Source: Thermoleptolyngbya sichuanensis A183 (GTDB lineage: Bacteria > Cyanobacteriota > Cyanobacteriia > Elainellales > Elainellaceae). Taken from it: 64,000 bases of DNA. A model generated the notes under the pieces. The model made no database searches. It had not been told where the DNA came from and worked only from the letters and a program-made list of their open reading frames with translations. This document shows, piece by piece, positions 50,720 through 52,600 of the stretch. Both the position numbers and the translations under genes were made by a program. How positions within the stretch are numbered: the first letter of the stretch is position 1; the number at the start of each line of letters is the position of its first letter. The DNA is taken from assembly GCF_013177315.1 (NCBI RefSeq), contig NZ_CP053661.1, positions 3,100,001 through 3,164,000 on the forward strand, in the 5' to 3' direction.

Positions 50720-52405
50720 CTAGTAAACCCAGCGGACGCGGTGATCTGGCTCTGGGCTGGCGATCGCCCCCCTGCTCTCTAGGTAGACCAGCGCTGGATA
50801 TTGGGTAAACCGCCCTAGCCCACCTGTCCACCAGGGATCGAGCGTCCAGTAAATCTGCTGCCCGGTAAGACCGTCGCAGTAGAACAGCAGGGCACTGCCA
50901 AGCGTATGCTGCTCTGGACTGGGGCCAGGCAAGGCTCTGGCTGCCTCTGGAGAACAGTGCCATGCGATGATATGGGGCGATCGCCCTAATCGCGTGGCCA
51001 CCTGTTCCATCGCCGTCGCCAACTGCACGATCGCCCGCATCGCCGCCAGATTTTTCGGCAGGTACAGCCCGCCTTGGGTCGCCTCCGCCCAGGTCAGCCG
51101 TCCGCCAGGGGCGATCGCCCCGTGCAGTTGAATCGTGTCTAGCGTCCACTCGGTTTGCAGCACGGGCAGCAGGTCGGGTACGGGTGCAGGCGTTGCGTCT
51201 GGAGAGCCGGGACGTGCCGATTGCAACTGCCGCAGGTCATCCACGAGCGATCGCACGGTGGTCTCGCCTGTCTCCAGCCCCCGCCAGGTCTGCACCAGAT
51301 GCAGCAGGGCCACGCGCTGAGCGTCGGTTTGGCGATAGGCAGCGGGAATCCGCTGGACAAATCGCAGAAGCTGCTGATCAAGCTGGCGAGCAGCATCCAG
51401 CAACGCAGCGGGGCTGGCGCTCATCAAGGATTCTGGATCTACACCCAGCGTCCGCACGGCTGTCGTGCGCGAATCCAGGCCTTGCCATAGGCGAAAGGTT
51501 TCCGTCAGGGCATTGCGCTGTTCCCCTTTGCCCAGGTAATGCGCCGGAAGCCGCTGCACAAAAGCCATCAGCGCCGGGTCTAGCGTGGTCAAATCTGGGG
51601 AAAGGGGATCTTTCTTTTCTAGAGAGGCGATCGCCGCTTCTCGGCTGGGCAACTGTCGCCAGCACTGCACCAGCCGCAGCAGCGCCTCCCGCTGATGGGG
51701 ATAGCCCGCGTAGTTGAGCGGCAGGCGGCGGCTCAGGTCTTGCAAGGCGATGTCCAGGCGGTCCGTAGCAGGCAGCGCGTCTGGCTCAGAGGTTGACCCA
51801 CGGGGCAAGAGCGAGTGAATGGCGGCTGATTGGCTGTCCAACTTCCGCCAGAGTCGCACTGCCTCCAGCAGTCCGTCTCGCTCGTGGCTTAGCCCGCGAT
51901 AGGTTGCAGGCACTTGTTCCAGGAAATTCAGCAGCGCCCCATCCACAAACGCCAGGTTAGACGGCAAACCCGCCGCCAGATGGTCTGCTTCCACCCTTTG
52001 GACATAGGCCCGCAGCAGCGCCCCGCCGTCGCAGGGTTCGAGCTGGGCGGCGTGGGTGTCGTTGGGCGGCGGCAAATAGCCCTCCGCCAAGGCGGTCAAA
52101 AAGCGATCGCCATAGCGCCCCCGATCCACGTCCCACAGGTCAGCGCTTTGCCAGCCCTGAGCAATCAGGCGATCGGTGATGCTGCGAACCGTGCTGGCGA
52201 CGACCTGCGCCTGTCCAGGTAGCGTTTCTACCTCTGTCAGCGCCACCTGGTTGGCAGGCGAGATGCCGAGGCCGACTTCACCATCGCTCAGGGTTGGAGC
52301 CTGATGCACCGCGTGGAGGGCCGCCAGCAGCGGCGCATGAACCCCAGCGCGATCGCCCGCCTGTTGAAAACATGCCCTGCGCTGTGCGGCGTTGAGTGGT
52401 TCCAT
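50720..52405 (-). CDS. Hypothetical protein with four internal repeats and a degenerate peptidase M15-like C-terminus
   Basis: The 561-residue product has no full-length match I know. Residues 1-150 form a variable N-terminal domain. Four repeats of about 44 residues follow at 157-200, 219-262, 277-320 and 345-388, each of the form L..F(V/L)..(V/L)P..Y......R..L...(V/F)(R/Q).W(R/Q).L.(S/T)...A. The C-terminal 140 residues resemble M15 (D-Ala-D-Ala carboxypeptidase-like) proteins: PGGRLTWAEATQGGLYLP, EQHTLGSALLFYCDGLTG, DPWWTGGLGRF. The HxxGxAxD motif reads HTLGSALL, so the metal-binding Asp is missing, and the SxYR motif is replaced by AWHCSPE. There is no signal peptide. Function unknown; loss of peptidase activity is inferred. 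Confidence 0.72.
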   Translation of the reverse strand: MEPLNAAQRRACFQQAGDRAGVHAPLLAALHAVHQAPTLSDGEVGLGISPANQVALTEVETLPGQAQVVASTVRSITDRLIAQGWQSADLWDVDRGRYGDRFLTALAEGYLPPPNDTHAAQLEPCDGGALLRAYVQRVEADHLAAGLPSNLAFVDGALLNFLEQVPATYRGLSHERDGLLEAVRLWRKLDSQSAAIHSLLPRGSTSEPDALPATDRLDIALQDLSRRLPLNYAGYPHQREALLRLVQCWRQLPSREAAIASLEKKDPLSPDLTTLDPALMAFVQRLPAHYLGKGEQRNALTETFRLWQGLDSRTTAVRTLGVDPESLMSASPAALLDAARQLDQQLLRFVQRIPAAYRQTDAQRVALLHLVQTWRGLETGETTVRSLVDDLRQLQSARPGSPDATPAPVPDLLPVLQTEWTLDTIQLHGAIAPGGRLTWAEATQGGLYLPKNLAAMRAIVQLATAMEQVATRLGRSPHIIAWHCSPEAARALPGPSPEQHTLGSALLFYCDGLTGQQIYWTLDPWWTGGLGRFTQYPALVYLESRGAIASPEPDHRVRWVY

Positions 52406-52516
52406 CGCTCCCTGTCCTCCCAGTCTTGCAATTCGGCTTCGCGATTATCCGTCGCGGCTCCAAACGACTATCTGCCCTCCCAATTTACCCGCTGATGCCC
52501 ATTTGGAGACAGGTTG

Positions 52517-52600
52517 GAGATTTTGGATTGGGGATTTTGGATTTTGGATTGGGGATTTCGGATTTTGGATTGGGGATTTTGGATTTTGGATTGGGGATTG
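52517..52600. repeat. GGATTTT-type tandem tract
   Basis: The tract repeats GATTTTGGATTGGGGATTTT about four times in 84 bases, with one substitution (GATTTCGG). It lies between the start of the four-repeat protein and the stop of the ABC half-exporter. It is the longest of several such tracts in the window (others near 6530, 29664 and 39180). Confidence 0.85.

Follow-up and report, generated by a model that had tools for sequence, protein, structure and literature searches.

A 561-residue protein encoded in the genome of Thermoleptolyngbya sichuanensis A183 represents a conserved, usually single-copy, cyanobacterial family in which a lysozyme-like domain without its catalytic glutamate is followed first by four helical repeats and then by an M15 zinc-peptidase domain. 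What is unusual about the family is this double-hydrolase layout and the recurrent loss of its catalytic site. The reading that we favor, at slightly less than even confidence, is that a hydrolase of the cell wall has on several occasions become a protein that binds or regulates instead of catalyzing. This protein would probably be cytoplasmic and linked to a conserved single-transmembrane (TM) partner whose gene adjoins its own in most relatives. Enzyme-to-regulator conversions are usually regarded as single old events. Here, about 100 genomes offer intact, intermediate, and disarmed members of one usually single-copy family with the same layout, and because intact and disarmed forms coexist within it, a non-cutting role is directly testable by swapping orthologs of the two kinds. 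The family is also a widely kept, uncharacterized, wall-related protein of cyanobacteria that comes with a probable partner.

The gene was found in a 64,000-nucleotide stretch of DNA, the whole of which is referred to as the window, from a cyanobacterial genome of 5,525,100 bases, and it occupies exactly the reading frame given in the initial annotation, which was made from the sequence alone. Its features, in window positions, are as follows.

50720 to 52405, minus strand: whole gene, 561 aa, with an ATG start and its stop codon at 50720-50722; 98 full-length orthologs aligned
51968 to 52405, minus strand: N-terminal lysozyme/lytic-transglycosylase-like domain, residues 1-146, from AF2 models and structural matches
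52304 to 52306, minus strand: H34, at the site of the catalytic Glu in lysozyme-superfamily enzymes, from range offsets and column counts
51800 to 51958, minus strand: repeat unit 1, residues 150-202
51608 to 51772, minus strand: repeat unit 2, residues 212-266
51437 to 51595, minus strand: repeat unit 3, residues 271-323
51233 to 51394, minus strand: repeat unit 4, residues 338-391
51149 to 51220, minus strand: Pro-rich linker, residues 396-419, where pLDDT dips to 76
50723 to 51148, minus strand: M15-peptidase-like C-terminal domain, residues 420-561, from the 1LBU structural match and PF08291 in orthologs

Scans of the window protein against Pfam and NCBIfam gave no family match above chance, a PDB sequence search returned chance-level matches only, plus 1LBU at E 0.35, and a literature search found no published work on the family. 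The protein had been supposed to belong to no described family with this layout; the arrangement is indeed new to Pfam and NCBIfam, yet it is common in cyanobacteria, with a family member in 111 of 388 genomes of the class (each at least 90% complete; one member per genome at the threshold used). The succession of N-terminal domain, four repeats, linker, and M15 domain is near-uniform across the family. A close relative of the window protein, at 80% identity, comes from a metagenome-assembled genome (J069) that is apparently the same record as its congener (G001). One ortholog of 586 aa (L005) contains a duplicated stretch near its N-terminus, seen as two matches covering query residues 3-62 and 47-546. 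In the window itself, a tandem array of the unit GATTTTGGATTGGGGATTTTG (positions 52514-52600; ~3.9 copies of 21, 96% matches) lies directly upstream of the gene start, within the putative promoter region.

The initial annotation recognized the repeats and the M15 domain but missed the domain at residues 1-146. AF2 models had a mean pLDDT of 93 for the full-length protein and 96 for the N-terminal domain alone. Residues 1-147 matched MltF (Z 9.6), MltE (Z 8.4), MltC (Z 8.1), and g-type lysozyme (Z 7.8) in structure, and practically every row listed in the N-terminal search was a glycan-cleaving enzyme of the lysozyme superfamily (best Z 9.6), where Z values of 8-10 are to be read as modest for a helical fold; Foldseek alone gave a weak match (E 0.24). 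The N-terminus was also considered as an SLT or muramidase (PF11860) domain by sequence profile, with zero matches, and the likeness is visible by structure only. In enzymes of the lysozyme superfamily the catalytic Glu sits where the second helix ends. Range offsets, which assume an ungapped stretch before that point, put MltE E64 (35 to 5) and LytB E585 (553 to 2) on residue 34 of the window protein, and goose lysozyme E73 and MltF E316 presumably fall there too. This residue is H in 59, Q in 35, S in two, and L in one of the 98 aligned rows, with one gap, and is Glu in none. Alignment columns further showed that H23 is invariant and E43 near-invariant across the family.

Four repeat units had been proposed at about 44 residues each. 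Their number and homology stood, whereas each unit proved to be ~53-55 residues long and to consist of three helices. Pairwise BLOSUM62 scores of 81-107 were far above shuffle means of 20-22 (z 14-21), and profile-profile comparison with hhalign gave probabilities >99% (E 1e-18 to 3e-28), so that a chance origin is rejected by both approaches. The consensus of the unit is LDxALxxFxxRxPxxYxGxxxQREALxExVRLWRxLDSRxxAIxSL. A repeat profile matched four times in almost all of the positive genomes listed, the exceptions being G055, which has a second, muramidase-fused protein, and G024, whose copy is disrupted. A match of the repeats to a known family, which the initial annotation would have taken as a refutation, was not seen for the window protein, in which they fit no Pfam or NCBIfam model, but they do recur elsewhere, since five copies precede an N-acetylmuramidase (PF11860) in one relative (L045/L144; E 1e-8 to 3e-15). 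The repeats were also compared with PG_binding_1 (PF01471): hhalign matched no unit to it, and the window protein has no Pfam match. Pfam does mark PG_binding_1 fragments among the repeats of the L045/L144 muramidase, and for this reason a distant kinship with PG_binding_1 is possible. Some members carry extra repeats of another kind, SH3-like by reading, ahead of the M15 domain (L046). The Pro-rich linker that follows the repeats has the highest dN/dS within the protein. In several drafts (L117-L121, G011, G028) contigs end near this linker (~residue 404-413), which suggests that an assembly-breaking repeat lies there.

The M15 character of the C-terminus, read initially from a few conserved motifs, was confirmed in two ways: residues 429-561 of the model superimpose on the Zn DD-peptidase 1LBU (Z 11.9, 2.6 A over 118 residues), and intact-site orthologs match PF08291 at E ~1e-13 to 1e-16, as well as the MepK model NF053624 below its cut-off. 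A weak DPBB_1 match together with an M15-like C-terminus was also seen in an 813-aa protein (L051, genome G031), possibly a phage-tail-like hub. In the window protein the site is reduced to one of three zinc ligands, at the following positions.

50906 to 50908, minus strand: H500, the one retained zinc-ligand position
50885 to 50887, minus strand: L507, replacing the zinc-ligand Asp
50783 to 50785, minus strand: Y541, replacing the second zinc-ligand His
50954 to 50956, minus strand: C484, replacing the Arg of the SWYRPP motif

The reported absence of the metal-binding Asp therefore holds and extends to the second zinc His. The substrate-binding S-x-Y-R segment is missing as described, with A481-W-H-C484 in place of S-W-Y-R, and R448 is replaced by Y448. 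The congener shares all of these residues (H500, L507, Y541, A481, C484, and Y448).

The family as a whole presents a different picture. The H-D-H zinc ligands are intact in 67 of 98 full-length members, which keep the HxxGx(A/G)xD...H site and support the proposed descent from a wall hydrolase; D507 and H541 are present in 100%, R484 in 97%, and R448 in 96% of these. Orthologs with an intact site, which the initial annotation regarded as evidence against its interpretation, thus exist in the family, while the window protein itself lacks the site, and because so many orthologs retain it, its absence is best read as a lineage-specific, recurrent loss and not an ancestral absence. The remaining 31 members lack at least one zinc ligand, with replacements at position 507 that include L, V, A, K, and T. 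In these lost rows the substrate shell (R448, S481, R484, and S498) is mostly gone, whereas scaffold residues W439, A442, T443, G446, P450, W482, G503, and W526 are kept in 100%. Two members (L039 and L090) have all three ligands, yet positions 448 and 481 have already changed, which suggests that the substrate shell may change before the metal site.

When trees were made from residues 1-400, so that the M15 domain did not contribute, these losses fell in separate parts of the family. The minimum number of changes between intact and lost states was eight on a quick tree of 98 rows and seven on a careful tree of 76 rows, counts that carry no direction. Well-supported separate lost clades comprise the query clade of five rows (100/99), clades of 13 rows (99/93) and seven rows (98/95), and a pair (100/100), in addition to single rows. 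We infer that the changes were losses rather than gains, because the intact triad is the state shared by other M15 proteins in the same genomes. In several separate clades the cleft Arg and His were replaced mainly by aromatic residues (448 by Y/W/F/H, 541 by Y). A stronger version of the favored reading, which we offer tentatively and consider rather doubtful at present, is that the hydrolase was independently converted at least four times to a non-catalytic receptor, the aromatic substitutions hinting that, in a protein not altered in other respects, the cleft was convergently readapted to a different ligand or partner.

Constraint on the M15 domain was compared between intact and lost members using pairwise Nei-Gojobori counts, in which dS is near-saturated in many pairs and pairs overlap in sequences. 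Among intact pairs the M15 part had a median omega of 0.059 vs 0.11 for the rest of the protein and a dN ratio (M15/rest) of 0.53; among lost pairs the corresponding values were 0.105, 0.13, and 1.03. For the window protein and its congener, omega was 0.19 in the M15 domain, 0.15 in the N-terminus, and 0.13 in the repeats, with an M15 value of 0.13 when the alignment and the domain boundaries were set slightly differently. By these counts, site loss clearly appears to remove the extra catalytic constraint on the domain while constraint on the fold persists. The rise in the dN ratio is what would be expected if the C-terminal domain were a decaying relic, drifting toward loss after catalysis was gone so that only the N-terminus and repeats still matter, and disrupted copies of the gene in G024 (L053 and L122, broken into pieces with fragments on both strands) and G032 fit the same idea. 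We nevertheless regard such decay as improbable, given that omega stays at ~0.10 (0.19 for the window protein vs its congener) and that scaffold positions are conserved at 90-100% in at least four separate lost clades; moreover, no member was established in which the M15 domain is the only part missing, as truncated matches mostly stop at contig ends.

With the catalytic Glu absent from the lysozyme-like domain and the M15 metal site gone, it is strongly supported by sequence that neither hydrolase domain of the window protein should be expected to cut. The protein could still be an enzyme by another route, either through N-terminal glycan cleavage involving H23, E43, or H/Q34, or through an M15 cleft that works by means of E/T/K507 and Y541, with a different metal or with no zinc at all. 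The conservation of H23 and E43 would suit the first route, and one clade retains an acidic residue in the cleft (HGAE/Y), which would suit the second. Both seem improbable to us, in that Glu never occurs at position 34 and the replacements L, V, A, K, and T at position 507 share no new catalytic set, the window protein itself having L507. Binding is instead the inferred mode of action, because the fold is still under selection although the hydrolase sites are gone.

Where the protein acts is suggested by its topology and its neighbors. The statement that it has no signal peptide held for the entire family, in which hydropathy revealed no hydrophobic signal or TM stretch, and access to mature peptidoglycan is uncertain for that reason; a cytoplasmic binding protein is plausible. 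A gene for a single-TM protein lies downstream on the same strand in 57 loci, and one for a HAD-family hydrolase lies divergently upstream in 60 loci. The single-TM gene adjoins the family gene in 21 of the 28 lost loci that have enough flank and in 34 of the 65 such intact loci. It is present in 109 of 111 family-positive genomes vs 105 of 277 family-negative ones, a figure inflated by ancestry and not independent evidence, because the partner shares its phylogeny with the family. The three genes are scattered in the genome of the window (family gene at 3.15 Mb, TM protein at 5.01 Mb, HAD gene at 3.89 Mb), where the family gene is flanked by topA and an ABC transporter, named by reading of their translations. 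The HAD gene there (L139) is a short, possibly truncated frame of 205 aa whose match ends at position 180 of 246. The soluble domain of the partner is large and highly conserved, and a basic stretch after the TM segment suggests that this domain is cytoplasmic.

Two further explanations draw on the same observations. In the first, the family would serve cytoplasmic muropeptide recycling, with intact members trimming muropeptides and disarmed ones sensing them and signaling through the partner. The missing signal peptide, the probably cytoplasmic partner domain (as judged from charge), and the divergently adjacent HAD phosphatase-like gene in 60 loci are all compatible with this role, but no recycling genes were seen in the neighborhood, and we consider it unlikely, if less so than relic or alternative enzyme. 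In the second, the protein would be an endolysin-like autolysin of phage ancestry, freed by its holin-like single-TM neighbor, its disarmed forms acting as antagonists or in an immunity-like capacity. M15 domains of the family's type are common in phage endolysins, and the protein lacks a signal peptide. However, the large conserved soluble domain of the partner is unlike a holin, and wide vertical retention with repeated disarming is ill-suited to a lysis role. In addition, searches for full-layout homologs in phages and on plasmids found the M15 part alone, and viral contigs gave no match to the family protein. These results lead us to reject phages and plasmids as the source of the full layout, and the autolysin explanation as a whole appears very unlikely.

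Under the favored reading of a hydrolase turned binding or regulatory protein, the lysozyme-like cleft and the remodeled M15 cleft would hold either a partner hydrolase or a peptidoglycan-related ligand, be it a glycan strand, a muropeptide, or a precursor. The four repeats would form a fixed-length spacer or docking array between the two hydrolase folds. Together with the single-TM protein, the window protein would probably act either within the cytoplasm or on the inner surface of the cytoplasmic membrane, and its output would likely be regulation or localization of wall enzymes, by analogy with inactive factors described below.

With Peptidase_M15_3 (PF08291) and MepK/DUF882 the family shares the fold, the HxxGxAxD...H(L/I)D frame, and the GGLG.Y loop; the window protein differs in lacking the Asp and second His, in matching neither model, in having no signal peptide, and in that its M15 domain is joined to four repeats and a lysozyme-like domain. 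The best structural match of residues 429-561 is the Streptomyces albus G Zn DD-carboxypeptidase (1LBU), whose zinc site is intact and which also carries a PG_binding_1 domain, whereas the repeats of the window protein give no profile match to PG_binding_1. Residues 1-146 have their fold in common with MltE, MltF, MltC, and g-type lysozymes (Z 7-9.6), but the family has His or Gln at the catalytic Glu position, and by sequence profile its N-terminus matches neither SLT nor PF11860. The L045/L144 muramidase has the same repeat, in five copies, ahead of a wall hydrolase, with the muramidase in place of M15 and the N-terminal lysozyme-like domain absent. EnvC, NlpD, and ActS are inactive LytM factors that have a wall-hydrolase fold and activate amidases (PMC9238320). 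These factors have an M23 fold, are exported, and are linked to division, whereas the C-terminus of the window protein is M15, so that the likeness is one of functional analogy and not of homology.
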